A stretch of DNA of 48,684 nucleotides from positions 1 through 48,684 of the IMG/VR virus record IMGVR_UViG_3300020171_000017; one strand, written 5' to 3'. A program made the position numbers and the translations under genes. Origin of the DNA: a virus. Of the stretch, positions 1,306 through 17,198 are shown in pieces. Every line of letters begins with the position of its first letter. The stretch's first letter is position 1. The notes under the pieces were generated by a model that had not been told where the DNA came from, ran no database searches, and saw only the letters and a program-made list of their open reading frames with translations.

Positions 1306-1620
1306 ATGCCTGAAATCTATATTAAAAGTATAGTATTAGAAAAACAAATATACGATTCTTTTAAAAGTACTTTAAAAGAAAGGTACTCTAACTTAAAATC
1401 TCCAAGATGCACGTTTTCTAATTTTGAATCATGGTCGTTAATGGCGATGGTATTAGGTATTTTTACAAGTTACGGCGATATAACTTCATCGCCGTTGTTT
1501 TTAGAATGTTTAGAAAAAGAATATTTACCTGAATTAAAAAAAATAGATAGAGATAAATATGTTTATGTATGTATATGCATAAAATCAAATGACCGAAGTA
1601 AAACCAAACAGTATACCTAA
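1306..1620 (+). CDS. hypothetical protein upstream of the XRE-like regulator
   Basis: A 104-residue protein starting at ATG 1306, about 30 bp downstream of the promoter's -10 box, with only a weak Shine-Dalgarno site. It has a hydrophobic stretch at about residues 45-57 that is too short and too mixed for a confident membrane helix. The last 32 bases overlap the next gene in another frame. No family is recognised. Being the first gene after a promoter and next to a repressor-like gene, it may be regulatory, but nothing in the sequence shows this. Confidence 0.55.
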   Translation: MPEIYIKSIVLEKQIYDSFKSTLKERYSNLKSPRCTFSNFESWSLMAMVLGIFTSYGDITSSPLFLECLEKEYLPELKKIDRDKYVYVCICIKSNDRSKTKQYT

Positions 1621-1801
1621 AAACAAGTTGCGTGAATTTCGAGTGGTTCCTCACATCAGCCAATGGCAACTCGCATTACAAAGCGGTGTTAAACAATCCC
1701 GTATTTCTTTAATTGAAAATTTACTAGTTAAACCTAGTACACGTGAGAAGATTAAACTTTCTAATGCATTGAAACAATCTATTGAGGAGGTTTTTCCATA
1801 A
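1589..1801 (+). CDS. XRE/Cro-type helix-turn-helix DNA-binding protein
   Basis: A 70-residue protein that is almost entirely one HTH_XRE domain: the segment SQWQLALQSGVKQSRISLIE has the classical spacing of helix 2, turn and recognition helix 3, and the tail REKIKLSNALKQSIEEVFP is the usual closing helix pair (normally LGVSIEEIF). Such single-domain proteins act as Cro/C1-like regulators and bind short palindromes as dimers. It overlaps the preceding gene by 32 bp and lies five bases before the small-terminase candidate. It is the only recognisable transcription regulator in the window and so the best candidate for control of the shared promoters, although no operator was identified. Confidence 0.8.
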   Translation: MTEVKPNSIPKNKLREFRVVPHISQWQLALQSGVKQSRISLIENLLVKPSTREKIKLSNALKQSIEEVFP

Positions 1802-1806
1802 TTAAT

Positions 1807-2736
1807 ATGCCAGAAGATAAACCAGTAGATCCGTTAGAAGCAGCGTCAGAAGCCGAATATAACGAAAAGATAGTAAACGCTTTTAAGCCTGAACCAAAGG
1901 TTGTAGAAGAACCGATTAATGGTTTAACTCCCGCCGAAATTGAATCTAACCTAAAAAAACAGCATGATTTGAATGAATTGCCTGAAGAGTTTAATGTAAG
2001 GCATATTGGGGATTTAACTTATCTGCAAGAGATCTTTTGTGCTAAATATGATAAATTCAAATCTCTGGATTATTTAAATAAAATGCGAGAAACGATGGTT
2101 CTAGAAGGCCATCAAGAGAGTTCACAACTTAACGAATTTCTTTTTTGGGCGGCAATGAGCCGTAAGATGCAGATTATATACCAGCGCATGCATGCTAAGA
2201 TGACTCGGCAAAAAGGATCTACTGACGATACCGCCGAGAACATCGGTTTGCTGAAAGAGATGAGAGCTATATCTGAACAGCTAGCTAGTTTACAAAGGAA
2301 CATGAGTATTGATCTCGATAAACGCAAGAAAGTCAAAGACGTAGTAGACTTGCACGAAGAGACCATGCAGGCAGCGGAATCGTTTATAAAATCGCATTTA
2401 GGAGAATGCAGCTTTAGGTGCCAAAAATGCGGTACGATAGTGGATACAAAAGGGCTTCCGCATTTCGCGTTTATGACTGAAAAAGATAAGAATACAGGTG
2501 AGACTATATACTATGTTTTTTCACCTGAATTATGGTATTTATATCGTAAAAAGAAAATTGAATTACATCAAATGGCGTTTATTTTACGGACTTCACCTGA
2601 AGGTATACTTGTTACTGCCGATATGCGCGGTGAATATGGCACGAAAATATTGATTGAGAACGTGGCGATGTTAGAAAAAGAAGAGAAAGAACTTAAAGGT
2701 TTGATGAAAGGATTTAATAGTGGAATTGAAAGTTAG
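1807..2736 (+). CDS. putative small terminase subunit (position-based)
   Basis: A 309-residue protein directly upstream of and overlapping the large terminase by 17 bp. An acidic, Pro-rich N-terminus (1-60) is followed by a long helical region (about 95-195) with coiled-coil spacing. A CxxC pair (FRCQKCG, about residues 204-210) then begins a mixed alpha/beta C-terminal domain. Small terminase subunits bind the packaging site and are usually encoded just before terL; the long helical oligomerisation region fits, but the length is above the usual 140-200 residues and no DNA-binding motif is clear. The single CxxC could be half of a zinc site completed in a dimer. An AGGAGG lies about 15 bases before the ATG. 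The function is inferred from gene order. Confidence 0.6.
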   Translation: MPEDKPVDPLEAASEAEYNEKIVNAFKPEPKVVEEPINGLTPAEIESNLKKQHDLNELPEEFNVRHIGDLTYLQEIFCAKYDKFKSLDYLNKMRETMVLEGHQESSQLNEFLFWAAMSRKMQIIYQRMHAKMTRQKGSTDDTAENIGLLKEMRAISEQLASLQRNMSIDLDKRKKVKDVVDLHEETMQAAESFIKSHLGECSFRCQKCGTIVDTKGLPHFAFMTEKDKNTGETIYYVFSPELWYLYRKKKIELHQMAFILRTSPEGILVTADMRGEYGTKILIENVAMLEKEEKELKGLMKGFNSGIES

Positions 2737-4375
2737 CGATATAGAAAAGAAGTTGTGTTTATACTTCGTTTTTCACCATAAAATCGCGTTTCGGGATTTT
2801 TTCATACCGCAAGCTATGGGCAAGCCGTTTCGTATGCATTACTACCAAGTGCCGCCGGCGTTATGCGATGAGCTGGTCTGGGCGGGCGCGCGCGGTACAG
2901 GCAAGAGCTATGACCTTGAATTCTCGATTATGCAAAATCCGTTTCTATACCCTGGAGAAGAGACATTTTTAACGGCTTACCGTAGAACGCATATTAAAGA
3001 CAGGTTAGAAAAGGTAATTACATATTTAAGTTCTGTACCTTATTTACGCAGGTTTTTTAAAGGCGACAGTGAAACTTCGTTACGAGAATCGGTTACCAGG
3101 TCGCCGATCTATTCTATTCGGTTTAAGAACAAACATGAGATATGCGGCATCTCGACGGGCGACGATCCGCAGGCCGTGGCCGTTTCCGGGCACCACCCTT
3201 GCTTCAGATTTATAGAAGAATCCCAATTTTATACCACAGATGCCTGGATGCAGTACCAGAACACCCAATCGCCTAGCGGTTCTATAGACAGATACTATGG
3301 AGTATCTAACGGCAGGCTAGATTCTCCGTTCTATATAATCACGCATAAACTAAAGAAGTTCAAGAACAAACGGTTTCGTGTGCATCGCGCGATGGAGCCG
3401 AATTGGACTCAAGAGCTAAAGAGAGACAAATTATCTACCTTAAAAGGCCCAAATTCTAACGATTGGATACAACAAATTGAAGCGCAAGAGGGTGAACCTT
3501 CGTTTGGCGTGTGGAACGAAGCTGATATACGCAAGAACATAGATTTTATTGAATCAAAAGAAGTACCTGGTACGCTTGCTAATACAATAAAAACAATAGC
3601 GGTTTTAGCAAAAGACTATGTCGATATGGATGCTAATCAAGTACTGTGTAACTTACCGCAACTGCCTGAGAATGGTTTAGAAGTTATTTTAGGTATTGAC
3701 GCGGGATATTCGCAACCGACGATTATATTGCCTTTTTATTTTTATAAAAACAAATGGAACCTGAACTGTAAAATCTTATTATTAGACCGTATGATTTCAG
3801 ATGATCAAACAGAGTTAATAGATTATATAGCTTCATTTTACAAAAACTGTTATTTAGGCATTGATTGTTCTTCAGCAGATGGCAGAGATATAGCCACTAA
3901 ACTATGCAACCCTAAGAATGAAGAATACAATACAAAACAATACGATAAACGTATATTTTTCATAGATTTCAGAGAAGCATTAATTATTGGATATAAACGT
4001 GAAATGGAAAGTGGTAGAGTAGCACTTGTAGAAATAAAAGATCACATGAAGAATTTAACTACAAGAGTATTAAGAGACAAATTTTCTAAGGAAGAATTTT
4101 ATTTGGTTTACGATGAAGAAATGATACCAGAATTCATATCAGAAACACAAAAGACTGAAGGCGGCAGATTAACCATACACACGCCGCCTACGGTGCACAT
4201 ACCGGAAGCATACAGATGTTTCGCGGGTGCATGGTGGAAATTAAAGATAAAGGTAGAAAAACCGCCTTTAGAAGAAGACGCGGAGGAAGAGTATCAAATG
4301 GATTTTCCTACTTATGCGCCAAACGATTTAAATTTATTTGTAAGAAGGCCGGAAAAAGATACAATACCGCGTTAG
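2720..4375 (+). CDS. terL: terminase large subunit (DNA-packaging ATPase/nuclease)
   Basis: A 551-residue protein starting at GTG 2720 behind AAAGGA. The packaging ATPase is marked by a Walker A motif GARGTGKS (residues 56-63) and a Walker B with catalytic Glu in FRFIEESQ (about 162-169). The C-terminal RNase-H-like nuclease is marked by the Asp in LGIDAGYS and by a second acidic site in LGIDCSSADGRD. The enzyme translocates DNA into the prohead through the portal and cuts the concatemer. Length is normal for the family. It overlaps the putative small subunit, and a promoter follows within 12 bases of its stop. The first third (about 2810-3260) is visibly richer in GC than its flanks. Confidence 0.95.
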   Translation: MELKVSDIEKKLCLYFVFHHKIAFRDFFIPQAMGKPFRMHYYQVPPALCDELVWAGARGTGKSYDLEFSIMQNPFLYPGEETFLTAYRRTHIKDRLEKVITYLSSVPYLRRFFKGDSETSLRESVTRSPIYSIRFKNKHEICGISTGDDPQAVAVSGHHPCFRFIEESQFYTTDAWMQYQNTQSPSGSIDRYYGVSNGRLDSPFYIITHKLKKFKNKRFRVHRAMEPNWTQELKRDKLSTLKGPNSNDWIQQIEAQEGEPSFGVWNEADIRKNIDFIESKEVPGTLANTIKTIAVLAKDYVDMDANQVLCNLPQLPENGLEVILGIDAGYSQPTIILPFYFYKNKWNLNCKILLLDRMISDDQTELIDYIASFYKNCYLGIDCSSADGRDIATKLCNPKNEEYNTKQYDKRIFFIDFREALIIGYKREMESGRVALVEIKDHMKNLTTRVLRDKFSKEEFYLVYDEEMIPEFISETQKTEGGRLTIHTPPTVHIPEAYRCFAGAWWKLKIKVEKPPLEEDAEEEYQMDFPTYAPNDLNLFVRRPEKDTIPR

Positions 4376-4386
4376 GAATAATAAAC

Positions 4387-4700: not shown

Positions 4701-6443
4701 ATGTCAAAAAAAGATAAAATCAAAACCGCGATTTTAAATAACGATATGCATGTCGGCGTTATTTCTTCAGCGCATCCGCGTGTGTTGTGGGGAAATAGTC
4801 CTAATGACGAAGATTTTCAAAAATCCAATAGATCAGATTACGGCCGTGTAGTTGATGTACGAGTGCCGCATGGTTACCATGAGCAATGCAAAAAATCATG
4901 GGAGATGTATGAAACCGACAGGTTATTCAGATACCTCGTAGATCGTTGCGGTGATTTTGCCGCTAATGGGTTTGAATGGGAAATACCTATCGCTAAGAAG
5001 ATAAACTTTACTGAATGGTTGAAGAACAAAGTTTTAAAACAACCTACAGCTGAAGAAAAAGAACATGCGGTATGGAGTAAATTCGCCGCGACATTAAACA
5101 AAACCGTAAAGAACGTAATGCCAGGTATAGATGAAGTTAACAACTGGATAGTAAAACATCTTCTGTTGGGTGCTATGGCGCCGTTAGAATGGGAATGGGG
5201 TAAAGTCAAAGTAGACGGCGTAGACTACGAAATGCCAGTGAAAATGGTAATACATAACTCTTTATCTATAGCATTAAATAGATCAACGCAGGCTTTTGCT
5301 GATGAAGAAATGTACTTGAAACTATCTTCTGGTATACAAAGTATAACCGAAGCGATTAAGATATCTCAAATCGGTATTGGCACACAAGTGATGAAAGATT
5401 CAAAAGATTGGCATGAAATAAACTTAATGGGTACAATAGGCAAGCCTAAACTTGAAGGTTTTGCGATAAAGTATAAATGGTCTCCTGGTGACAACACTGC
5501 GTTAGTATATGGTCGTAATGTTCACGTAGGCCAAGGTTTATATCCTACGCCGCCCTTTTCTGGTCTTTATGAAACATTGATTATGCGGCGCGCGTTAACT
5601 GCGGCTGATATAGCCATACTTGATGGTATTATAAACTTTATTTTAGACTGGGAAATAGGCGATAACACTACAATACAAGTAGCGCCGGGTAAAGAAGTGC
5701 TGCCGAACCAGCCATTAGCTGCTAAGTACGACGCTTCAGGCACGAAAATCTCTAAAAGTTCAATTGAAATGGCGAAAGAAATGATTACCTCTGATACTAG
5801 AGGCAACGTAATGCAGTTATTTCATCCGTATTATATGAAGTTAAATATTAAAATCCCGGACACTTCTGTGTTACTTAACAACATAAAATATGTACAATCT
5901 ACTGTAGAAGTATACCAAGCGTTCGGGATTTTACTTTCTCCTGCCGACAAAAGAATGGATTTTAGCGGTATTAATATACAGAATTTCGAACAATTTCTTG
6001 ATAATATAAGATTATGCCATATAAAAAGATTTTGGGAGGCATTAGCTTCTGAAATAGTAGATAGAAACAAAGATAAATTAACCGTAGTACCGAACATGAT
6101 CTTTAAACCGCTGAATACAAAGACTGAAGAGTTTAAACGCAGTTTATTAGAATTGATGAAGATAGGCAAACTTTCTACAGAAAGCCTACATTCAGGTTAT
6201 GGTTTAGATAATCGGGTAGAGATAAATCATATCGCTAGAGAAATAGCTAGTGGAGAGAAAGAACTGACAGATAGGCAAGTACCCGTATCGTTTGTGCAGG
6301 CGAATAAAGGTGTAGAAGGAACTGATGCTGGTAGAAACAAGAAACCAGAAGAAGAAGTTATTGAAGAAGAGGATAAATTAACACCATTACAACAGCAAGG
6401 CAGGCCTATAGGTACAGGTAAACCGAAGAAGGAGAAGAAGTAA
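4701..6443 (+). CDS. probable portal protein
   Basis: A 580-residue soluble protein at the portal position, right after terL. It has the mixed alpha/beta layout expected of the dodecameric vertex protein through which DNA is packaged: a region around FRYLVDRCGDFAANGFEW, a conserved-looking WNxW-like core (PLEWEWGKVKV), and a long helical segment (LIMRRALTAADIAILDGIIN) compatible with the stem and crown helices. The C-terminus (about 540-580) is Lys/Glu rich and probably disordered. No single motif proves the family, so the call rests on size, position and general pattern. The ATG directly follows the T run of a terminator and has no Shine-Dalgarno site, which is unlike the other structural genes. 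Confidence 0.65.
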   Translation: MSKKDKIKTAILNNDMHVGVISSAHPRVLWGNSPNDEDFQKSNRSDYGRVVDVRVPHGYHEQCKKSWEMYETDRLFRYLVDRCGDFAANGFEWEIPIAKKINFTEWLKNKVLKQPTAEEKEHAVWSKFAATLNKTVKNVMPGIDEVNNWIVKHLLLGAMAPLEWEWGKVKVDGVDYEMPVKMVIHNSLSIALNRSTQAFADEEMYLKLSSGIQSITEAIKISQIGIGTQVMKDSKDWHEINLMGTIGKPKLEGFAIKYKWSPGDNTALVYGRNVHVGQGLYPTPPFSGLYETLIMRRALTAADIAILDGIINFILDWEIGDNTTIQVAPGKEVLPNQPLAAKYDASGTKISKSSIEMAKEMITSDTRGNVMQLFHPYYMKLNIKIPDTSVLLNNIKYVQSTVEVYQAFGILLSPADKRMDFSGINIQNFEQFLDNIRLCHIKRFWEALASEIVDRNKDKLTVVPNMIFKPLNTKTEEFKRSLLELMKIGKLSTESLHSGYGLDNRVEINHIAREIASGEKELTDRQVPVSFVQANKGVEGTDAGRNKKPEEEVIEEEDKLTPLQQQGRPIGTGKPKKEKK

Positions 6444-6444
6444 A

Positions 6445-6798
6445 ATGTATTATATAGGTGATACTTTTTTACATCAAAATGCGATTGTAAGTGGTTCTTC
6501 TACTTTTCCTACAACTAAAAGCGGTATTGATTGCGGTTTGTACGATAGTCTAGCGCTTGAACTTAGTCTTGCCGGCACAGCTACTCCTACCTGGGGAATA
6601 ACACCAGGTTATTGGTCAGATTCATTAAATGCATATTGCGCAAGCAGCGCGTTGACAATAAACGCAGGTACTTCTGGTGGTGGGGTAGTTCTCGAAGTGG
6701 ATACTTTAGGTGCCTCAGATGTATACCTTTTATGTATAAATACAATAGGTACTAATCCAACAATAACAGTTTATGCTAAACAAATTAGGAAAGGGTAG
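6445..6798 (+). CDS. small beta-rich structural protein, paralogue 1
   Basis: A 117-residue protein, one base after the portal stop. It is Gly, Ser and Thr rich with strand-like alternation and ends TVYAKQIRKG. The next gene encodes a clear paralogue of the same length: both begin MYYIG-TFLH and share KSGIDCGLYDS, TPGYWSD and YAKQIRKG. Two Cys residues are conserved between them (DCGLYDS and the AYC/IYC position). The all-beta look and the position between portal and tailspike suggest a head-decoration or tail-attached protein, but I know no family for it. Confidence 0.75.
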   Translation: MYYIGDTFLHQNAIVSGSSTFPTTKSGIDCGLYDSLALELSLAGTATPTWGITPGYWSDSLNAYCASSALTINAGTSGGGVVLEVDTLGASDVYLLCINTIGTNPTITVYAKQIRKG

Positions 6799-6806
6799 GA
6801 GATAGC

Positions 6807-7160
6807 ATGTACTATATAGGTACAACTTTTTTACATCGTAATGCGGTTAGTAGCAATGATGCTGCTTTTCCTACAGTTAAAAGCGGTATTGATTGCGGTT
6901 TATATGATAGTATAGTACTCGAAATTTCTATTACAGGCACATCTACCCCTACCTGGACCGTAACACCTGGGTATTGGTCGGATTTGTTAGGTATATATTG
7001 TGCAGGGAGTGCGTTACAGGTTAGTTCAGGTACTTCTGGTGGATATTTGGTATATGAAATCGATACATTAGGCAACTCAGATATATATATTATGTGTTCA
7101 GCGTCTTCTGGTACGAGTCCTGTAATAACTATTTACGCGAAACAAATTAGAAAAGGATAA
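6807..7160 (+). CDS. small beta-rich structural protein, paralogue 2
   Basis: A 117-residue tandem duplicate of the preceding gene, eight bases after it, with its own GGAGA Shine-Dalgarno site. The two copies match at the start, the middle (TPTW.(I/V)TPGYWSD) and the end, and differ mostly in surface-like Ser/Thr/Asn positions, so both appear to be under selection. Equal lengths argue for two subunits of one assembly, or for a hetero-oligomer, rather than a decaying copy. The tailspike gene follows after eight bases. Function unknown; virion component inferred from context. Confidence 0.75.
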   Translation: MYYIGTTFLHRNAVSSNDAAFPTVKSGIDCGLYDSIVLEISITGTSTPTWTVTPGYWSDLLGIYCAGSALQVSSGTSGGYLVYEIDTLGNSDIYIMCSASSGTSPVITIYAKQIRKG

Positions 7161-7168
7161 TTAATGAA

Positions 7169-10100
7169 ATGATACCAACGATAGAAAAGCCTACATTAAA
7201 TAAAAAATATTTAGTGCGGCCTACTTTTCGTAATCCTTTGTATATGCAGCATAAAAATAAAGATACTGCCATAAGTTCAGCGCCTTATGGATTGACTTTT
7301 TATAAAGATTATACCAATGATAACGGTTTAAGTAGTGATTATTCTATAGGTAGCAGATTAGCCACCTTCACCGCTTCTCGTGGAGCAACCACTCCAGCAA
7401 CTTACGTTGATTCTAATGGAGTAATTCAGTTAGTTACAGCCTCAAATATTCCTAGATTTCAAGGTGGTTATTATGACGGAACTGGATTTCATGTAGGCAA
7501 TAATGGAATAATAATTGAATCTAGTACAACAAACAGAGCAACATATTCTAACATTCCTAATGATGCAAGTTGGACTAAAACTAATATAACTGCTAATAAT
7601 ACCGATGCCGGCTCATCTTCTCCCGATGGAACAACTACATCTCCTTCACTAACGGCATCCTCCGCTGATGGATCGTTCACTAAAACATATACTACATCTA
7701 CCGCTATTTATACCGCTTCTGTTTGGATAAAACGTAAGGTAGGAACAGGAGCGATTAACTTTAGAGCTAACGCTTCTGATAGTTATACTGATATTACTTC
7801 ATACGTTACTGACGGATGGACAAGAGTATTCGTTACTTCGTCTTCTTCTACCAATCCTACTTTTGATTTATCACTACATACCAATACTGATGCAGTTTAT
7901 ATTTGGGGTTGTCAATTAGAATCTGGGCCAAGAATGAAAAGTTTTATCCCAAGTGCCGCGGGAACGGTGCGGTCGAGAGGGGCAGAACTTCTAAGTTATG
8001 TTAATTCAGGGAGAAATGCAGTAAAAGAAACTATCGTTATACAATTTATACCATCGGGAGATTTTTCTGATGACGGAGTACAAAGAGTCTTAACTGCTAC
8101 TGATACGAAGGAAAGATTATTCAGAAAAAATAATTCTGCTGGTTCGGTTGCTGTGAATTTACTTCCCAACAAAACAGATAATTCAGGTGTTCAAGTATCG
8201 GGGACTACTGCTTGTGTGTCAAATACATCTTATATCGCAACTGCCACAATGGCACAAAATCCATCTTCTTATGCAGTTTATCTAAATGGTATTCAAGAAG
8301 GTTCTACTGGCTCAAGCACTTGGACAGCTCCAGTATGGGGAAATAATTTTTATATCGGTTCAGCCAATAATAATACAAATCATATTGGCGGTGTAATTCA
8401 GAAAGTTGCTTTCTTTAATCGTGTATTGACTTCTTCGGAGGTAAGTCAGGTTACTAATTTTTTTAATACAGTAACATCTCCTACTTGGTATGATTTTACC
8501 CTTGATTGGGCGAATATGGACGCAACTTCTCCTGCCAATATCGGTAGTATCGTCCTTGATGGTGATGTTGACCCTATTACAAGAACAACAACTGAATTTA
8601 CCAGAAATGCCGCAGCATATAAATTCTTCGGGACTAATCTTTCTTTTGACGCAAATATTCCAACTACTACAGACGCTGATTGGTGGGCTGATTATTTAGC
8701 TTTCTTTGGGTTTAATTGTATCAGATGGCATCATCTTGATAATTATTATCCTAATGGAATTTTAACAGATGATGGCACTACCCAGACAATGAACGATACA
8801 GCGTTTGACCGGATGGATTATCTTTTTTCAAAATTAAAAACTAAGGGTATCTATGCTAACTTGAATATGAATGTTTCAAGAGTGTTTCAAGAAGTTGGAG
8901 ATTCAGTAACAAGTGGAACAGCAGCTTATGCTATAAACCCATATTTAAAAGCTATTACTCAATATGATGCAAGGTTGATTGCTTTACAAAAAGACTACAT
9001 GAACAAACTTTTAGGGCATACCAACGCTTATACTTCTATTGCCTATAAAGATGACCCTGCTGTTGCCCTGATTGAAATGACTAATGAAAATAAACTAATG
9101 ATTGATTACTGGACATCAAGAAAACTTGACCCAGTAAATATACATACAACAGGAACGCCGTTTCCGGTATTTTATACAGATGAATTAACTACTCTCTGGA
9201 ATACTTGGCTTGACGTTACTTATGTCACTTATGCTGATGTAATAACTGCTTGGGGTTTGGCAGATTTGACTACGACACAAACCGCAAAATTTGACCATAC
9301 ATCAGAATTAAATAATCAGGTTATTTCTCCTGCGGAGGCGACTTTTGCTTTTGATGTCAACCATTGTGATATTATAGTTTCTACACCTTCAAATTATTAC
9401 GATGTCCAGTACAAATCTAATACTTCAATTACAAATGGTAAAGTTTATAGGTTTACTTTTGTGGCTTCTGCTACCGAAGCAAGGAATTTATACTTGGATT
9501 GTAAAGATCTTGGTACGGCTGTAAGTTATCATTCAACAACCCAAGCAATAACTACTACGCCCACAACTTATACTTGGGAGTTCTTAGCAACCCAAACCGC
9601 TAACGTACAAGTTAAATGGCAAATGGGTGATGTAGTAGGAACAGTAACAATCGGGACAGCAACATTTACAGAAGAAGATTTATATTACTACATAAAAGCT
9701 GAAAAAGACTTAACTGCTTTTACTTTCCATAGACCATATTATGAAAGACTTGCTCAGTATCCAGCAACACAGCAAGCCGATATAAATACGTTTATGGATG
9801 ATACTATTAAATCATTTTATGATGATATGCGGACTTATTTAACAACCACAATAGGAACAAATGCTTTAATTACTCCAGTAGGTGGTGGTAAAGGTTATTC
9901 TGCGGAAGCAGATATTACTCCTTATGCTGATTTCTTAGACGCTCACGTTTATTTTGATTCTCCTTCCACATTCAACGAAAACACTTTCATTATGACCAAT
10001 ACTCGAATGTTAAAAGATGCTAATTTAGGCATGGTTAATATACATAATACCAGAGAAGAAGCGGTAAAGACAATGCCATTTACAGTTACAGAATATAACC

Positions 10101-10756
10101 ATTGTTTCCCTAATTACTATACTTATGAAGGTAATTTGATGATGGCTATATATGGGTTGACTTATGATTGGGATGGATTATTTCAATATGGTTTTTCAGG
10201 GGATGCTACTTTTGGGAAGATTAATTTCTTTGATACAGCGAATAATCCCCAACAAATGCTTATATCAGGGTTGAGTTCTTATATCTTCCAAAAGGCTACT
10301 AATTATTCATATACAAATTTTGGTGATTATATAGTTTTTAAATCAGACCAAGTCTGTTGTGCTTTAGGTGCGATTGCAAACAGGGTAATTGATCTTAATG
10401 GTTATATAGTAGAGCCAAAAGTTGATGGAGTAGTTGCTATTTATTCTTCAACTAATACGACATTTGCGCTTTCAGATAAATTGGTAGTATTGACTATCGG
10501 CAGGGTAAGAAATACAAATGGATATTGGGACACTGGATATGAAGGTCAGGCAGGACATTATCACGGAGGAACAATTCCATCGCAATTACAATTAGCACAG
10601 ACAGATTTTATTATTCCTTATTCTGCAGGACAAAAAGTATACCAACTTAATAATAAAGGTTCAGTATCAACAGAAGTAACACAGACAGTAGATGGAATGT
10701 TAGCAACTTTTAGTAATACTGGAACAAATACACCTTGGTTTGTGATAGACAAATAA
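7169..10756 (+). CDS. tailspike-like protein with GH5/clan-A glycoside hydrolase domain
   Basis: A 1195-residue protein. Residues 1-280 resemble phage fibre N-terminal domains (YTASVWIKRK, QLESGPRMKSFIPSA). Residues about 285-435 look like a LamG/concanavalin-type lectin fold (YAVYLNGIQEG, NNFYIGSANN, VAFFNRVLTSSEV). From about 450 a TIM-barrel hydrolase starts, with FNCIRWHH typical of GH5. IEMTNENK carries the probable acid/base at E640, and VTEYNHC the probable nucleophile at E975. The 335-residue gap between the two is far longer than usual because a beta domain of roughly 150-200 residues is inserted between them. The likely role is binding and cutting a host surface polysaccharide. It is unusual to find it between portal and protease genes. 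Substrate unknown. Confidence 0.8.
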   Translation: MIPTIEKPTLNKKYLVRPTFRNPLYMQHKNKDTAISSAPYGLTFYKDYTNDNGLSSDYSIGSRLATFTASRGATTPATYVDSNGVIQLVTASNIPRFQGGYYDGTGFHVGNNGIIIESSTTNRATYSNIPNDASWTKTNITANNTDAGSSSPDGTTTSPSLTASSADGSFTKTYTTSTAIYTASVWIKRKVGTGAINFRANASDSYTDITSYVTDGWTRVFVTSSSSTNPTFDLSLHTNTDAVYIWGCQLESGPRMKSFIPSAAGTVRSRGAELLSYVNSGRNAVKETIVIQFIPSGDFSDDGVQRVLTATDTKERLFRKNNSAGSVAVNLLPNKTDNSGVQVSGTTACVSNTSYIATATMAQNPSSYAVYLNGIQEGSTGSSTWTAPVWGNNFYIGSANNNTNHIGGVIQKVAFFNRVLTSSEVSQVTNFFNTVTSPTWYDFTLDWANMDATSPANIGSIVLDGDVDPITRTTTEFTRNAAAYKFFGTNLSFDANIPTTTDADWWADYLAFFGFNCIRWHHLDNYYPNGILTDDGTTQTMNDTAFDRMDYLFSKLKTKGIYANLNMNVSRVFQEVGDSVTSGTAAYAINPYLKAITQYDARLIALQKDYMNKLLGHTNAYTSIAYKDDPAVALIEMTNENKLMIDYWTSRKLDPVNIHTTGTPFPVFYTDELTTLWNTWLDVTYVTYADVITAWGLADLTTTQTAKFDHTSELNNQVISPAEATFAFDVNHCDIIVSTPSNYYDVQYKSNTSITNGKVYRFTFVASATEARNLYLDCKDLGTAVSYHSTTQAITTTPTTYTWEFLATQTANVQVKWQMGDVVGTVTIGTATFTEEDLYYYIKAEKDLTAFTFHRPYYERLAQYPATQQADINTFMDDTIKSFYDDMRTYLTTTIGTNALITPVGGGKGYSAEADITPYADFLDAHVYFDSPSTFNENTFIMTNTRMLKDANLGMVNIHNTREEAVKTMPFTVTEYNHCFPNYYTYEGNLMMAIYGLTYDWDGLFQYGFSGDATFGKINFFDTANNPQQMLISGLSSYIFQKATNYSYTNFGDYIVFKSDQVCCALGAIANRVIDLNGYIVEPKVDGVVAIYSSTNTTFALSDKLVVLTIGRVRNTNGYWDTGYEGQAGHYHGGTIPSQLQLAQTDFIIPYSAGQKVYQLNNKGSVSTEVTQTVDGMLATFSNTGTNTPWFVIDK

Positions 10757-10983: not shown

Positions 10984-11609
10984 TGGTTAAACTATTATTC
11001 TTGATTCTTCTTTTACTTCCGCGTTTATGTTTTGCAGACGTAGGAGGGTGGTTTGGCCAAAGTTTAAGGCAGCATAATGATGTTGATCAGACAACAGGCC
11101 CATCTAATAATCAAGTACTAAAATATAATTCTACTACTGAACAATGGGAATTTAATAGTTTAACTGATTTGTTTGTGCCTTATACCGGAGCTACGGGCAA
11201 TGTTGATTTAGGGAATTATGGTTTAACTGCTACAAATTGTACTCTTTCTGCCACTGGAACTTCAGAAATCCCTAGTTTAGAGGTTAGCACAACATTAAAT
11301 ATCCCACACTCTACATCTTTACCAGCAACGTGCGCGGTAGGAGAAATTTACCAGGATACCGACGCAATTAATCTAGGCGTTGATTTATCAGGCACCTTCA
11401 CCGACGACATAGACGGCGTAACCAGAACAGGCACTTGGGGGGTTACATTGACAGATGTTACCGATGATTACGACGGTAAGACGAGGCCGCAAGGCAAGGC
11501 GTGCGATATTGGCGCGTATGAAGCTGAAAAAAGTTTGATTGATAAAGTACGGATAAGAAAAAATACTATAAATATTAATCAATTTGATAACTGTTTTTTA
11601 ACAGTATGA
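10983..11609 (+). CDS. secreted fibre-like protein with signal peptide
   Basis: A 208-residue protein whose first 19 residues form a typical signal peptide: a Lys, then a run of Leu/Ile/Phe, then a cut site after CFA. The mature part contains the fibre-like motif VPYTGATGNVDLGNYGL, seen in many phage tail-fibre proteins. Towards the end is DDYDGKTRPQGKACDIGAYE, which matches the choice-of-anchor Q style tail of secreted beta-helix proteins in diderm bacteria. A Sec signal on a phage structural-type protein is odd. It may be exported to the host surface, or the gene may be a mosaic of host and phage parts. It is coupled at both ends (TAATG and ATGA). Confidence 0.65.
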   Translation: MVKLLFLILLLLPRLCFADVGGWFGQSLRQHNDVDQTTGPSNNQVLKYNSTTEQWEFNSLTDLFVPYTGATGNVDLGNYGLTATNCTLSATGTSEIPSLEVSTTLNIPHSTSLPATCAVGEIYQDTDAINLGVDLSGTFTDDIDGVTRTGTWGVTLTDVTDDYDGKTRPQGKACDIGAYEAEKSLIDKVRIRKNTININQFDNCFLTV

Positions 11610-11965
11610 AAATCTTAATTATAGATGATGATAAGAATTATGCTGATACCATAAAAGATATCCTAGATGAATATGGGTATAAATGTATATGCCTATTAGA
11701 TGCGAGTAATGCGCATGAAACTAGCAAGACGTTTCAGCCAAATATAATTTTATGTGACCTTAAAATGCCGATGAGCGGGTTTAGTGTAGCGTATCATTTA
11801 GGCGAGAATGACAAAAAGATTATTATTTTAGGCGTAACGTCATATTACCATATTGAAAATGAACATTGGTTGGTTAAGTTATGTAACTTTAAAAAGATAT
11901 TCGATAAATCCAACACGCAAGAGCTAATAGATTACTTAAAGGAGTTGCAATGCCAGATGAGTTAG
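11606..11965 (+). CDS. stand-alone response-regulator receiver domain
   Basis: A 119-residue CheY-like protein with the full active site: acidic cluster D7-D8-D9, phosphoacceptor D51 in LCDLKMP, the Thr/Ser switch at T78/S79 in LGVTSYY, and a Lys near the end (FKKIF, about 96-97). There is no output domain, so it would act by protein contact after phosphorylation by a host histidine kinase, or by mimicking a host receiver. It is coupled upstream by ATGA and overlaps the membrane protein gene downstream by 16 bp. No kinase gene is present in the window. A receiver inside a virion gene block is unusual. Confidence 0.85.
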   Translation: MKILIIDDDKNYADTIKDILDEYGYKCICLLDASNAHETSKTFQPNIILCDLKMPMSGFSVAYHLGENDKKIIILGVTSYYHIENEHWLVKLCNFKKIFDKSNTQELIDYLKELQCQMS

Positions 11966-12306
11966 ACAGGGAGCTACTTATTGACTTAGGCAAAGATTTA
12001 CAAGAATTGAATAAAATTGTTTCTGCTATTGATGCTAAAATAGAAGAGCGAGATAAGAATGCTAAAGAGTTTCGGGATTCGGTGTGTAAAAAGATAGATG
12101 CGGTATGGGGAAATATTGAGGCTATGAGGAAAAATTATTTAGATCAACAAAAAGATAAAAATAAAATGTGGGTAGCGATATTTTGTACGTTTCTTGTGCC
12201 TATTATTCTTTATATCACGGTTTCGGCTAGAGTAGAAAAACAAGTTAGTATGAATACAGAAAGATTAACTCTTATTGAAAATCAATATAGAGTTTGGATA
12301 AAATAA
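11950..12306 (+). CDS. coiled-coil membrane protein, possible holin-like or anchor protein
   Basis: A 118-residue protein with a coiled-coil N-terminus (about 10-70), one clear membrane helix at about 73-93 (MWVAIFCTFLVPIILYITVSA) and a 25-residue hydrophilic tail with a second heptad stretch. A good GGAG site precedes the ATG. The layout recalls XhlA-type proteins that sit at the inner membrane with holins, but the tail after the helix is longer than in that family. It is tightly linked with the receiver upstream and the AAA+ ATPase downstream, so a membrane-tethered complex of the three is another possibility. Confidence 0.6.
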   Translation: MPDELDRELLIDLGKDLQELNKIVSAIDAKIEERDKNAKEFRDSVCKKIDAVWGNIEAMRKNYLDQQKDKNKMWVAIFCTFLVPIILYITVSARVEKQVSMNTERLTLIENQYRVWIK

Positions 12307-12314
12307 GGAGCGGA

Positions 12315-14153
12315 ATGATAAAAATAAATCAGTTTTTTAATCAGATACATACATATGAAAAATCGTTAAAGCAGACTGATTTTATTTTATCGAAATTCGC
12401 AAAGAAAGATTTTCCTTTATATGTGAGTATGCATAAAATTGGTTTATCGTGCCAAATACATAAAGATTTAGGTAATGTTTTAATCTATTCTGATAAAGGC
12501 GCTAATATTACTAGGTACTTACCTAATATAATTAAATCTATACAAAATCTTAAATGTGAAAAGGCAGTGCTATATGCGGCACTGACATTAGGTGATACAA
12601 ATAAAGATGGTAAAGATGTATTAGGATATTTAAAAACTATTAATAAAGATAATAACATTTTCTGCCATATTGAGGATATTTTATACTTTAATGAAGATAT
12701 ATCAGATTTTAATTTTAGTGTGCGTAAAGAAAAACTTGATGCAATAGGCATGAAACAATCGTCTTTTGCAATAACAGATAAAAAAGACTGCCTTAACTTA
12801 TCACCGCAGATTATTTGTAAAAATACCGTGGAATTAGAAAGAGCGATAAACAGATTAAGTTTATTTAAAAATTTCAATGGTATTAAGATTCAAATGGATG
12901 TGCCATATGAGATAGAAGAAGATGAGTGTGGCAGTTATGTTTATAGTAAAACAATACCTGATGTTATAAAAAGTTTTTCAAAAGGTTGTTCGCAACAACT
13001 TGATGAAATATCGATATATTGTGATTTTTTGAATTGTGAAATAAAAGATATTTATATTTTAAAAACTGATATATCGAATGTGCGTGCGGGAAATGTATTC
13101 AACGCCATAGAAAAGATGACCGAGAAGTTTACGTTGGTAGAGACTAGAAACTTTTCCGGCCGAGAAATACCGCCAATGTATAGAGAAATACAGTTAAAGA
13201 AAAACTTAGCGAAAACATTTTTAGTAGAAGGCACTAAATTTTATTATGATAACAGTAAAAGTTTGCCGTTAATATTGCAGTTATATCCCACTTGGGGTGG
13301 GTATCAGGCTAATTTTATTACACATATTAAGGCAAATGAATTTAATAACGAGTTAAGTAAACAAATTAATATTTACGCGAGAGAGAATAACTTTTTAAAA
13401 GGCGAAAAATTTTCTGTGGCTGGCGAGTTTTTAGATGAACAGAATATTACAATAGAAGATTTAAAACTTACTGCGCCGATTAAAGATAAAATAAAAAAGT
13501 TATTATCGTTAATCGCCAAAAATGACGTTACTTTAGATTCGCGCGGCTTGATTTTTATCGGTCCGCCTGGCTGCGGCAAGACGTTAACAGGCAAGTTACT
13601 TTCGAAAATGGCATCCACCTTTATTTGGGTAACCGCGAAAGATTTTTCTAACATGGGTACGTCTTACGCCATGACCACGGCATTTAATTTAGCGCGTGAT
13701 TTACGGCCTTCGATCTTGTTTATGGAAGATATCGATTCGTATATCGAATACGGTATGATAGATTTATTAAAAACAGAGTTAGACGGCATGAAGTTGAATA
13801 ACGGCGTGTTTACTATTTTGACTTCGAACTTTCCAGAGAATTTACCTGAAGCAATCATTGATCGGCCTGGCAGGTTTCATGATATTATATACTTTACTTT
13901 ACCTAATAAAGATATAAGAAAAGAGATGTTGCTGCATTTCTTAAAAGAAGAAGTTGATGCGCAGACATTAGAGACGGTATTAAAACAAACAGAAGGTTTT
14001 TCAGGCGCGCATATCAGAGAAGTATGTAGGTTCGCTGAGATAATTAAAAAGGAAGATAATTTAACTTTATCGCAATCGTTAATACAATCTTTAGAAAAAC
14101 TTATTGAACAGCGTAAATTAATAAACGAATTTAAGAATAAAAAGAATTTGTAA
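12315..14153 (+). CDS. AAA+ ATPase with a large unknown N-terminal domain
   Basis: A 612-residue protein from ATG 12315, behind AAGGAG; an upstream TTG at 12294 overlaps the previous gene and is rejected. Residues 1-400 match nothing I know. The AAA+ core has Walker A GPPGCGKT (416-423), Walker B ILFMEDID, a sensor-1-like ILTSNFPEN, and a second region of homology with DRPGRF, the arginine-finger position of classic AAA proteins. A helical lid (GFSGAHIREVCRFAE) follows. This is the FtsH/Cdc48/spastin branch, which forms hexamers that unfold or remodel proteins. Its place just before protease, scaffold and capsid genes suggests a role in capsid maturation or in host takeover. Confidence 0.8.
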   Translation: MIKINQFFNQIHTYEKSLKQTDFILSKFAKKDFPLYVSMHKIGLSCQIHKDLGNVLIYSDKGANITRYLPNIIKSIQNLKCEKAVLYAALTLGDTNKDGKDVLGYLKTINKDNNIFCHIEDILYFNEDISDFNFSVRKEKLDAIGMKQSSFAITDKKDCLNLSPQIICKNTVELERAINRLSLFKNFNGIKIQMDVPYEIEEDECGSYVYSKTIPDVIKSFSKGCSQQLDEISIYCDFLNCEIKDIYILKTDISNVRAGNVFNAIEKMTEKFTLVETRNFSGREIPPMYREIQLKKNLAKTFLVEGTKFYYDNSKSLPLILQLYPTWGGYQANFITHIKANEFNNELSKQINIYARENNFLKGEKFSVAGEFLDEQNITIEDLKLTAPIKDKIKKLLSLIAKNDVTLDSRGLIFIGPPGCGKTLTGKLLSKMASTFIWVTAKDFSNMGTSYAMTTAFNLARDLRPSILFMEDIDSYIEYGMIDLLKTELDGMKLNNGVFTILTSNFPENLPEAIIDRPGRFHDIIYFTLPNKDIRKEMLLHFLKEEVDAQTLETVLKQTEGFSGAHIREVCRFAEIIKKEDNLTLSQSLIQSLEKLIEQRKLINEFKNKKNL

Positions 14154-14170
14154 GGGGGTGAGACTATATT

Positions 14171-15748
14171 ATGGCAAAATGGACTACTGAGTATATTAAT
14201 AACCTAAGCGATTTGGCTTTCGCTTATATTGAAGATGGCGGTACTAAAGATGCTGATGGTAAAACCGTACCGAGATCGTTACGGCATTTACCGTATAAAG
14301 ATGAGGCAGGTAACGTTGATGCCGAGCATGTACGAAACGCTTTAGCGAGGTTACCGCAAACAGATATTTCAGATGCGGCAAAAGCGGCGGCACGCAAAAA
14401 ACTAGTCGCGGCGGCAAAAAAGGTTGGTGTTACCGTTGCTGATGAATCGAAAAAAGTGTTAGCGATACCTTTTGAATATCCGTTTAGTATTACGAAAACA
14501 TATGTAGATGGTGAGAAATGGTTTATAGAAGGTTACGCCGGTAGTACTGAATTGGATTTAGTCGGCGATATAATTACAGAAGAAGCCTTTAAATTAGCTG
14601 AAAATGATTTAGTAGGTAATTCGACTGTGCTTTATAACCATGATCCAGAACAATCAATTGGTAAAATCGAAGAAGTAAAAGCTATGCCAGAAGGATTATG
14701 GATAAAAGCGTTGATTAGCCAGACTGAACCTGATATTTGGCAGAAGATCAAAGAAGGTGTATTGAATAAGTTCAGTATCAGAGGCAGGGTTGTTGACGCG
14801 GTAAAGAAATTCATCAAAGATATTGGTAAAGTAGTAAATGTGATTAATGAGATATACCTAATCGAAGCGTCTTTAGTGGCATTGCCTGCTAATCCAGAGG
14901 CGAAGGCACTTTGTTGGTATGTTTCTAAATCGTTAACCGAGTTTGAATCGAAGGGGGGTGAAATTCCAATAGAACATGCTGATAATAACATGTTGAATGG
15001 AGGTACTATGACTATATCAGAACTAATGAAACAAATCAATGATCGTTTGGTCGCTGATGAAGACAAGGCTCTTTTAGCTACATTGCAATCTGAAGTTGAA
15101 AAATCTATCGCGACAATCATTAAAAAGAAATCAGGCGAGGCAATGACTCAATCTGATATCGACGTGCTAGAGAAATCAATTACGGATTTACAGGCAGCAC
15201 TTGACCTTGAAAAACAAAAAAAACCTAAAAAACCGATAGCAGATGAAATGCAAGATGATGAGATGAAAGAAATTATTGCGTTAGCAGATGAAATTCGCAA
15301 GAAATTTCCTGAAAAGTTTCCTAAAAAACCAGAAGATGAAGTAAAACCGAAAGAAGGTGTTAAAAAATCTACTGGCGAAGAATATACACAAATAGAGGTA
15401 GACACAATAGCTAAAGAATTAAGCGATACAAAAGCTAAAGTTGAGACTTTATTGAAAGAGTTAAACGATCTTAAAGCTGATACAGAAGTTGCTAAAAGAT
15501 GGGATAACTTAAAAAATGAATATGACAATAACGATGCTACTCTGGTAAAATCGATTTTAAAGAAATCGGTTACAGGTATTGCTTTAACTGTAGATGAGAC
15601 TGAACAACTGGTAACTAAAAAGTTGAGTTCTAGCCAGTTACGCGTTGCAGGTGGTAAAAATGAAACTGAAATTAAAAATTTAGACGCTCAAAGGCGTGAA
15701 GATTTGATTAAAAAAGGCGGGATTAGAGTTCGTTTAAAAAGTTCTTAA
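14171..15748 (+). CDS. prohead protease fused to a scaffold-like domain
   Basis: A 525-residue protein behind a GGGGGTGAG site. Residues 1-90 are a small helical domain (DLAFAYIEDGGTK to KKVGV). Residues about 100-260 match HK97/U35-type prohead protease: catalytic His in LYNHDPE, catalytic Ser in KFSIRGRV, and the closing motif YLIEASLVALPANPEA. From about 280 the chain is charged and coiled-coil-like with Lys/Pro-rich links, as expected of a scaffolding (delta) domain. The protease trims scaffold and capsid proteins during maturation. Strong internal ribosome-binding sites between the two halves suggest that the scaffold is also made separately. Cement and capsid genes follow. Confidence 0.85.
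   Translation: MAKWTTEYINNLSDLAFAYIEDGGTKDADGKTVPRSLRHLPYKDEAGNVDAEHVRNALARLPQTDISDAAKAAARKKLVAAAKKVGVTVADESKKVLAIPFEYPFSITKTYVDGEKWFIEGYAGSTELDLVGDIITEEAFKLAENDLVGNSTVLYNHDPEQSIGKIEEVKAMPEGLWIKALISQTEPDIWQKIKEGVLNKFSIRGRVVDAVKKFIKDIGKVVNVINEIYLIEASLVALPANPEAKALCWYVSKSLTEFESKGGEIPIEHADNNMLNGGTMTISELMKQINDRLVADEDKALLATLQSEVEKSIATIIKKKSGEAMTQSDIDVLEKSITDLQAALDLEKQKKPKKPIADEMQDDEMKEIIALADEIRKKFPEKFPKKPEDEVKPKEGVKKSTGEEYTQIEVDTIAKELSDTKAKVETLLKELNDLKADTEVAKRWDNLKNEYDNNDATLVKSILKKSVTGIALTVDETEQLVTKKLSSSQLRVAGGKNETEIKNLDAQRREDLIKKGGIRVRLKSS
15008..15748 (+). CDS. candidate internal-start scaffold protein, in frame with the protease gene
   Basis: Within the protease gene, GGAGGT (14999-15004) lies four bases before an in-frame ATG at 15008, which would give a 246-residue product starting MTISELMKQ. 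This is just where the protease domain ends and the coiled-coil domain begins. Nested scaffold genes are well known in tailed phages; lambda Nu3 inside C is the classic case. A second site of the kind used by neighbouring genes (GGGGGGTGA, 14951-14959) lies a little upstream but has no well-placed in-frame ATG. The call is inferred from the site and the domain boundary. Confidence 0.45.
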   Translation: MTISELMKQINDRLVADEDKALLATLQSEVEKSIATIIKKKSGEAMTQSDIDVLEKSITDLQAALDLEKQKKPKKPIADEMQDDEMKEIIALADEIRKKFPEKFPKKPEDEVKPKEGVKKSTGEEYTQIEVDTIAKELSDTKAKVETLLKELNDLKADTEVAKRWDNLKNEYDNNDATLVKSILKKSVTGIALTVDETEQLVTKKLSSSQLRVAGGKNETEIKNLDAQRREDLIKKGGIRVRLKSS

Positions 15749-15765: not shown

Positions 15766-16155
15766 ATGGATGTTAATTTATTAGATACACATATTGGCGT
15801 GCAATTAGCAGCTGGTGTGGCGGTAGGTCCTGGTACATTGATTAATTTGTATTCAGGTTCTGGCGTAGCAAGCGGTTCGTTAACTGCGAAACTAGCTGAT
15901 CACAGTTCTAGTATTTGGGCTCATGGTTTTGCTTTAACTAGTGGTGCCGGTACAAAAACAGCAGGTGTTGCTCAAAAAGTAAGAATGGATAGAGTTGGTA
16001 GGGTTACTAACGTTACATACTTAACATTAAGTCCTGGTCAATCTGTTTATTTAGGTGAAGACGGTAAATACGCAAAATCAGGAACCCAAAAAGTAGGGTT
16101 CGCTGTTGGTGCGAATGACGTATTTGTTGACTTAGATATGCAGCTAGGTGCTTAA
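15766..16155 (+). CDS. capsid cement/decoration-like protein
   Basis: A 129-residue beta-rich protein behind AAGGAGGTGA, placed between protease/scaffold and major capsid. It is Gly, Ala, Ser and Val rich, with strands such as VAVGPGTLINLY and LSPGQSVYLGEDGKY. The latter resembles the turn found in DUF2190-type and other capsid-stabilising proteins. Such proteins bind the outside of the expanded shell. Length and position fit well, but there is no unique motif, so the family is inferred. Confidence 0.6.
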   Translation: MDVNLLDTHIGVQLAAGVAVGPGTLINLYSGSGVASGSLTAKLADHSSSIWAHGFALTSGAGTKTAGVAQKVRMDRVGRVTNVTYLTLSPGQSVYLGEDGKYAKSGTQKVGFAVGANDVFVDLDMQLGA

Positions 16156-16184
16156 AATTTAACTTAAAGGGGGTGAAATACAAG

Positions 16185-17198
16185 ATGGCTGATTTAACAC
16201 GTGGTTTTACGACAACTGATGGTATTGACTTAAACGAAGTGTTGTATGGTACAGTGCTTCCTATTGTTGATTTATATAATCAAGAAGAAGTACTCGATTT
16301 ACGTGCGTTACTTTGTTCTGACTGGGACGAAAGCTATATAAAGTTCGATTCTAGCGGGCAATGGAAGTTCCAGAAGTTAGGTGAATCTGAAAAACCTACT
16401 TCAAAGAAAAAAGCTTGGGGTAAAATGCAAAAAGACTGTGCGAAGTACGGTCTTGACATTGGCTATACATACGACTGGCTGATGAGCGAAGCTTCAAGTG
16501 CGGCAGAAATTACTGCTATGGCGCGTAAAGCTGTTGAAAGAGACAGAGCTTTACAGACTGCTGTAATTTTAAGTGAGTTATTGACATCTGGTGGTTTTTT
16601 CAACGGTAGTTTCGAAGCTGGCGAGAATATGGCAACTCCTCCGACATTCGGGGCGAATACATTTTTAGCTGGTCATAGTCACTATGTTGCTTCTGGTTCA
16701 GCGACATTAACACTCGCGACAATCACAGCGATGAAATTGCATGCTAAAGAACATGGCTTCAAAGGTAATCTTTGGGGATTCATGAACGCTGACATGACAA
16801 GAAACATCGAAGATTTAGCAGGGTGGTACCAAGCTAGTACAGTGTTAATACCTAATAAAGTTACAGAAAATGTAGCGATTGAAGGTTTTGCAGGCAGGTT
16901 GTTAGGTGTTGATTGGAAAGAAACTGAATGGATGCCTACTGATTATCTTATTATTATCGGTACGCAAGCCGCTGGTGGTGAGAAACCTGTTCGTTATATA
17001 CAGAAGAAAAATCCTTCTGCTAAAGGGTTACTCTTAACACCTGGTAGTTACGATCCGAAATATCCGATCATCGATGCTGATTACCTACATTGGTTAGAAG
17101 CGAAGATCATCGTTAGAGGCGCAGGTGTTGTGTATCAATTAACAACAGATGCTTACGCTGATCCTGACATAACAACAAATGTAGTTGAACAAGATTAA
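16185..17198 (+). CDS. major capsid protein (HK97-fold)
   Basis: A 337-residue protein from ATG 16185. A GTG at 16173 would add four residues but overlaps the Shine-Dalgarno site AAGGGGGTGA. The N-terminus resembles long-arm HK97-type capsid proteins (DLNEVLYGTVLPIVDLYNQEEVLDLRALL). The sequence continues as an alpha/beta shell protein with an extended Gly-rich region (GGFFNGSFEAGENMATPP) and a C-terminal segment LEAKIIVRGAGVVYQLTTDAYADP. Length, gene order (protease/scaffold, cement, then this) and strong ribosome-binding signals all fit. A promoter sits in its last codons, so genes after the capsid can be driven separately. Confidence 0.8.
   Translation: MADLTRGFTTTDGIDLNEVLYGTVLPIVDLYNQEEVLDLRALLCSDWDESYIKFDSSGQWKFQKLGESEKPTSKKKAWGKMQKDCAKYGLDIGYTYDWLMSEASSAAEITAMARKAVERDRALQTAVILSELLTSGGFFNGSFEAGENMATPPTFGANTFLAGHSHYVASGSATLTLATITAMKLHAKEHGFKGNLWGFMNADMTRNIEDLAGWYQASTVLIPNKVTENVAIEGFAGRLLGVDWKETEWMPTDYLIIIGTQAAGGEKPVRYIQKKNPSAKGLLLTPGSYDPKYPIIDADYLHWLEAKIIVRGAGVVYQLTTDAYADPDITTNVVEQD

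Follow-up and report, generated by a model that had tools for sequence, protein, structure and literature searches.

Gene organization of the locus

The stretch of DNA analysed here, referred to as the window, comprises bases 1–48,684 of a 135,529-base virus record (IMG/VR record IMGVR_UViG_3300020171_000017), and this study concerns an AAA+ ATPase encoded in it together with the neighboring genes. Three consecutive genes on the plus strand encode a stand-alone CheY-like receiver of 119 amino acids (aa) (11606–11965; Pfam Response_reg, 1.1e-10), a coiled-coil protein of 118 aa with one transmembrane (TM) helix at residues ~73–93 (11950–12306; hydropathy peak 2.36), and the ATPase (12315–14153; 612 aa from the ATG at 12315), which is matched by Pfam AAA and DNA_ligase_A_M and carries Walker A and B motifs. 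An earlier note, made from the sequence, had described these genes as a tight, overlapping cluster that might form a signal-gated remodelling complex at the inner membrane. The Pfam matches and the hydropathy profile confirmed that all three genes are real, consecutive, and located on the same strand. Their consecutive order thus stands, but the overlap between the coiled-coil gene and the ATPase gene does not: the ATPase most likely starts at the ATG at 12315, which is preceded by the ribosome site AAGGAG (Shine-Dalgarno sequence), and not at the TTG at 12294, which would yield a protein of 619 aa. The ATPase gene therefore follows the coiled-coil gene, whose stop lies at 12306, without overlap. 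Of the 46 gene junctions in the window, moreover, 22 are overlaps, and at 37 the spacing is 30 bp or less. As dense packing is general in the window, it is by itself no evidence for a complex.

The ATPase gene is followed on the same strand by genes for head formation. A prohead serine protease of the S78/HK97 type (14171–15748; Pfam Peptidase_S78, 4.7e-9; PHROG head maturation protease, 1.8e-20) starts 17 bp downstream; it contains an S78 domain with the catalytic residues H157, S202, and E232 and has a long coiled-coil, scaffold-like C-terminal part. Next come a 129-aa protein, by its position a decoration or head protein (15766–16155), and the major capsid protein (16173–17198; PHROG major head protein, 1.3e-38). 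The order ATPase, protease, 129-aa gene, and major capsid gene is kept in the related records L004, L006, L011, and L012. L004, a 175-kb contig, encodes an ATPase that is 60–61% identical to that of the window. L067 keeps the same head-gene order as well, but its ATPase gene encodes 1814 aa.

Domain structure of the ATPase

The ATPase consists of a pseudo-ligase domain (residues ~46–180), a conserved domain (~228–392), the AAA module (~412–528), and a subsequent lid. The AAA module matches Pfam AAA (PF00004) at about 8.4e-17 and possesses the features of this family, namely Walker A (GPPGCGKT), Walker B (EDID), the sensor-1 Asn, and the arginine fingers (DRPGRF) of the second region of homology (SRH). 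K422 and T423, E471 and D472, N505, and R517 and R520 are invariant in all 21 aligned family members, and so is the SGA of sensor 2. Walker B of the family reads ED (ED.D) rather than the usual DE, a type which we take to occur in BCS1 as well. Pore loop 1 has the form x-hydrophobic-G in many members, with an aromatic residue in some only; it reads N-M-G in the window protein and Y-I-G, Y-M-G, or H-I-G in others, and some members lack the Gly.

The N-terminal 400 residues, which the earlier note had regarded as unknown, could be assigned in part. Residues ~46–180 (12438–12854, plus strand) match the adenylation domain of ATP-dependent DNA ligases (Pfam PF01068, 2.9e-5, at 12450–12854) and archaeal-type DNA ligases in the PDB (3.6e-4 with the single sequence, 4.5e-6 with a profile of four sequences), and a PF01068-type match was found again in three other records. 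However, the domain is degenerate. Ligase motif I (KxDG) reads HKIG in the window protein (H40-K41-I42-G43), NSFG in L004, and NING in L011, the catalytic Lys being replaced by His or Asn. Having lost the nucleotidyl-accepting Lys, the window ATPase does not qualify as an ATP-dependent DNA ligase. In L067, the ligase domain is much clearer (1.7e-13), and motif I is intact (KRDG) in this record only; judged by this comparison, the window copy looks like a decayed enzyme that has been retained as a binding module. The ligase domain occurs in 4 of the 21 members scanned, all of them in the window's clade. In the 1814-aa relative (L067:361–5802), zinc-ribbon-like, nucleotidyltransferase-like (TNDIDILI), intact-motif ligase, and LigD phosphoesterase-like stretches flank the AAA module, the last of these being a weak match in the C-terminal tail (0.055). 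The second N-terminal domain, ~165 aa located just before the AAA module (residues ~228–392; 12996–13490, plus strand), is present in all 17 members aligned. It returned no Pfam and no PDB match, and a weak PHROG match in 1 of the 17.

Linkage of the ATPase family to the prohead protease

Relatives of the ATPase were gathered from IMG/VR using a profile of the ATPase core alone, with no protease in the query. With the core profile, 33 loci were obtained; a wider profile gave at least 244 matches. The best 80 of these were examined, and 90 members remained after dereplication. All linkage counts rest on the 80 members that have their start within the contig. Each of these 80 members is linked to S78, 64 by N-terminal fusion, 14 through a separate gene, and 2 within a polyprotein. 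The 14 separate S78 genes lie on the same strand as the ATPase gene, and 11 of them adjoin it directly (−8 to +41 bp). Two others are located ~1 kb downstream, while that of L084 is an overlapping upstream piece, perhaps due to a frameshift. The usual order in the fused open reading frames is S78 prohead protease, conserved domain, AAA module, and tail, and a GRVLSxKN-type motif recurs in the C-terminal tail of 28 of 67 fused members. In L116 (5881–9159) and L122 (4226–7357), AAA ATPase, S78 protease, and HK97-type major capsid protein form a single polyprotein, with AAA, Peptidase_S78, and Phage_capsid detected by Pfam in the one protein. Pfam alone detects S78 in 10 of the 21 members scanned; the remaining fused ones are recognized by an S78 profile trained on the family. 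His, Ser, and Glu of the protease active site are conserved without exception in all 87 sequences. Portal genes were detected within 4 kb upstream in 46 of the 80 members.

On the tree, the window groups with the split members L004, L006, L011, L067, and L068. The fusion state has changed at least nine times, and both domain orders occur. Repeated fusion in two orders, taken together with the adjacency in split members, strongly indicates that ATPase and head-maturation protease function together. The ATPase belongs to a viral family that is widespread, apparently undescribed, and always located beside or fused to this protease. We propose to define this S78-linked AAA family by a core that is fused to or located beside S78, an arrangement found in the window and in all 80 testable members.

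AAA genes outside the family served as controls. In four annotated phages, these genes sit among replication or unannotated genes with no annotated head gene nearby; a fifth control, Xanthomonas phage phiXF1, was not counted since the neighboring genes are unannotated. The huge phage LR756500 encodes a distant AAA protein (78 bits) beside pieces of an NAD-type DNA ligase. In this region (L151; LR756500.1, 348541–361626), an inserted gene apparently divides the NAD-dependent ligase into two frames, and the distant AAA ATPase comes next.

No fusion of AAA and S78 was found in 50,697 phage records, where tblastn matches corresponded to the AAA part or to the protease/capsid part in different records. 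Likewise, no description of a fusion between AAA and prohead protease was found in open-access papers (subscription papers were outside the scope). Two scans of 84,980 prokaryote genomes returned no close relatives of the ATPase or the capsid protein and, hence, no provirus or named host.

The receiver and the membrane coiled-coil protein

The receiver had been credited with a full active site, which holds for the most part. Inspection shows the acidic residues D7/D8, the phosphorylatable position D51, and K101 to be in place, but the assignment of the Thr/Ser residue is ambiguous: in the phmmer alignment, G76 occupies this position, and T78/S79 are nearby. A search for PF00072 in the records of five close relatives, among them the 175-kb L004, gave no receiver. 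Of 40 further family records, one contains a receiver, which is part of a 520-aa frame and lies ~14 kb from the ATPase locus of that record. Thus, a receiver beside the ATPase is absent in all 45 other records carrying the ATPase or its head genes. Furthermore, a scan of viral contigs returned no relatives of the window receiver, and no HATPase_c histidine kinase domain is encoded in the 135-kb virus record. The receiver as part of a conserved module was therefore rejected, and with it the three-gene unit suggested by the earlier note, which fails the check on other phages that the note itself had set. The gene looks incidental, an accessory acquired by this phage alone and a passenger dispensable for the machine.

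A small membrane/coiled-coil gene is located directly upstream of the ATPase gene in eight members, including L004, L012, L067, L059, L060, L066, and L104. The TM segment of these small proteins is N- or C-terminal, and those of the window and L004 share only 21% identity. An XhlA/holin-type identity of the window gene (11950–12306) was considered and dropped, since no profile was significant and a PHROG match to hemolysin E (0.0082) was unconvincing. Given its recurrence upstream of the ATPase, the 118-aa coiled-coil protein is a possible membrane-proximal partner of the ATPase.

Further features of the record

A putative portal protein is encoded at 4701–6443 (plus strand), as judged from its position between the putative terminase and the protease. 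It shares 70% identity with the product of the gene at the equivalent place in L004; profile comparison against Pfam-confirmed portals gave no match. Directly after this gene, a tandem pair of 117-aa paralogues (6445–6798 and 6807–7160) without family match is located. In the window, the interval from the putative portal gene to the ATPase gene contains insertions, namely the gene of a tail-like protein and others, the receiver gene among them; the tail-like protein (7169–10756) consists of 1195 aa and contains a lectin-type Laminin_G_3 domain. In L004, the putative terminase (1565–4384) comprises 939 aa compared to 551 aa in the window, the extra stretch being intein-like with a homing-endonuclease-like part. 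In L058 (1113–3926), the portal gene is fused to a MuF domain and a HINT/intein-type domain. A long run of sugar-related genes occupies positions 17750–44743 of the window, and most of those scanned encode glycosyltransferases or methyltransferases. Outside the window, at G000:C1 about 70041–79106 (L070:2042–11106), the record contains a cluster of 18 tRNA genes and a predicted transfer-messenger RNA (tmRNA; L070:3058–3457) with an unusually long tag, ADENQRLLASAEDIVAPIFAGDPVFA. The 18 tRNAs and the tmRNA suggest a bacterial host.

A proposed role in head maturation

In HK97-like and T4-like phages, assembly is commonly regarded as the trigger of prohead proteolysis, and packaging and expansion as the source of energy. 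As the ATPase described here always adjoins or is fused to the protease, it probably powers head maturation. The reading we favor, albeit guardedly, is that the S78 head-maturation protease has in the ATPase a dedicated AAA+ partner, which would act as a hexamer on the protease-scaffold and drive maturation by ATP. The hexamer would be attached covalently in most relatives and non-covalently in the window phage, and it would operate inside or on the prohead. The domain identities, the order of the genes, the constant linkage to S78, and the intact motifs of ATPase and protease are established from the sequences, whereas the hexamer, its location, its substrate, and the direction in which it acts are inferred. 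By analogy to the behavior of AAA+ protease partners, ATP might be used to pull apart scaffold, delta-like regions, capsid parts, or other head proteins and to feed them to the protease; alternatively, it might be spent on the clearance of cleaved scaffold and other products. The pseudo-ligase domain would probably bind DNA or protein rather than act as an enzyme, and the adjacent coiled-coil protein may tether the assembly to the membrane. The receiver would not be needed. Of the remodelling complex envisaged in the earlier note, an ATP-driven role in assembly would thus be retained, in line with an ATPase gene that precedes the protease gene and is fused to it in most relatives, while the signal gating would not. 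A broader proposal, which we put forward tentatively and which may well not hold, is that head maturation is ATP-driven in a large group of uncultivated tailed viruses. Their AAA+ motor would be an integral part of the prohead protease-scaffold, and sometimes of the capsid polyprotein, or would dock onto it, and it would represent a new class of AAA+ protease that operates within or on a viral shell.

Several points weigh against a motor dedicated to the protease. The canonical aromatic residue of pore loop 1 is missing in the window protein, which renders threading through the pore uncertain. L013 is a relative of the window by capsid and protease, yet no AAA gene lies between its portal and protease genes or was found anywhere else in the 43.5-kb record; in some lineages, such a protease can accordingly do without the ATPase. 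No S78 match was obtained near the distant AAA gene of LR756500. In addition, the family is defined by similarity of the core sequence and covers the best 80 of at least 244 matches, and the proposed role is deduced from sequence and gene order.

Other roles of the ATPase were weighed against these data. It appears unlikely that the ATPase and the TM coiled-coil protein form a membrane-proximal platform that recruits or remodels the portal or prohead, the link to the protease then reflecting co-assembly and not substrate feeding. A TM/coiled-coil gene does occur directly upstream in eight members and a portal gene upstream in 46 of 80, Walker B is of the ED type that BCS1 may share, and membrane-proximal assembly has been proposed for the BCS1-like AAA proteins of jumbo phages (Iyer et al. 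2021, PMC7824862). However, most members have no TM gene directly upstream, the small membrane proteins encoded by the window and by L004 show little similarity, and the fusions involve the protease, whereas fusion to a TM segment was never seen. A mainly structural role as a prohead core protein, with the ATP cycle as a switch or irrelevant, might be suggested by the location of the AAA module between the protease and the tail with the GRVLSxKN-type motif in fused members. We consider this improbable, as even very divergent members retain every nucleotide-handling motif unchanged.

The presence of ligase-, nucleotidyltransferase-, and phosphoesterase-like parts raises the question of whether the ATPase is a polyvalent protein that is packaged into the virion together with the protease core, is injected to protect or repair incoming DNA, and has decayed in the window. 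Polyvalent phage proteins have been described in virion gene contexts (PMC5512222), and L067, a close relative, encodes such a large protein with a clean ligase domain, intact KRDG, and a weakly LigD phosphoesterase-like tail. Nevertheless, this explanation is improbable for the family, in which the ligase domain is restricted to 4 of the 21 members scanned, all from a single clade, the catalytic Lys is gone in the window, L004, and L011, and S78 is the constant partner. Very improbable is a complex gated by the receiver, which would be phosphorylated by a host kinase and then set the timing of assembly or lysis through control of the membrane protein and the ATPase. The genes are consecutive and closely spaced, D7/D8, D51, and K101 are in place, and the tRNAs and tmRNA point to a bacterial host, where kinases exist; but none of the 45 other records has a receiver next to the ATPase, a scan gave no relative of the receiver, the record contains no HATPase_c, and close spacing is general in the window. 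As a conserved module, this complex is largely refuted.

If a dedicated motor of the head-maturation protease is indeed present, some viruses would spend ATP on the clearance of scaffold or the remodelling of the shell. The family would then provide a concrete function for AAA genes that are now annotated as FtsH, CDC48, or unknown, and the fusion proteins together with Walker mutants offer a handle on energy use in capsid maturation. The parts are known and are joined in a combination of which no description was found; they would form a new class of machine if maturation is ATP-dependent.

Comparison with known systems

The protease partner of the family corresponds to the HK97-type prohead protease (Peptidase S78, PF04586/TIGR01543) with its invariant His, Ser, and Glu. 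Fusions of protease and capsid protein are known (NF045541; Pseudomonas phage PAJU2 type), and the L116 polyprotein is ~41% identical to the PAJU2 protein over the last ~670 residues. However, the known S78 proteases and protease-capsid fusions are without ATPase, whereas all family members examined here have an AAA+ module, either within the same chain or encoded next to the protease. The degenerate domain at residues ~46–180 resembles ATP-dependent DNA ligases (PF01068), from which it differs by the exchange of Lys for His or Asn and by its fusion to an ATPase within a head-gene cluster. Stand-alone receivers such as CheY, Spo0F, and DivK share the fold, acidic pocket, D51, and Lys with the window receiver; in contrast to these, it has no kinase in the record and an uncertain Thr/Ser position, and it is found beside the ATPase in this record only.

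Among the classical AAA ATPases (CDC48/p97, PAN, FtsH, BCS1), the best profile matches of the window ATPase are to CDC48/p97 and PAN/CDC48/FtsH, with which it has the SRH arginine fingers in common. It scores far below the curated NCBIfam cut-offs, reaching 74.5 of 500 bits for PAN, 67 of 803 for CDC48, and 57.5 of 600 for FtsH, and is thus not an equivalog of any of these. It also differs by its own N-domain without known match and by Walker B (ED instead of DE), and its partner is a viral capsid protease instead of a zinc protease or proteasome. The BCS1-like AAA and MoxR-vWA pairs of jumbo phages (PMC7824862) are similar in that AAA+ proteins, some near membranes, are proposed to aid virion assembly; no S78 link or fusion is described for them, whereas S78 is the constant partner in the present family. 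As in the AAA+ proteases FtsH, Lon, and ClpXP, an AAA+ motor is combined with a protease, either within a single chain or as two chains, and in either order. Unlike in those systems, the protease is a maturation enzyme resembling herpes assemblin and not a closed chamber, and the unfolding of substrates by the family is putative.

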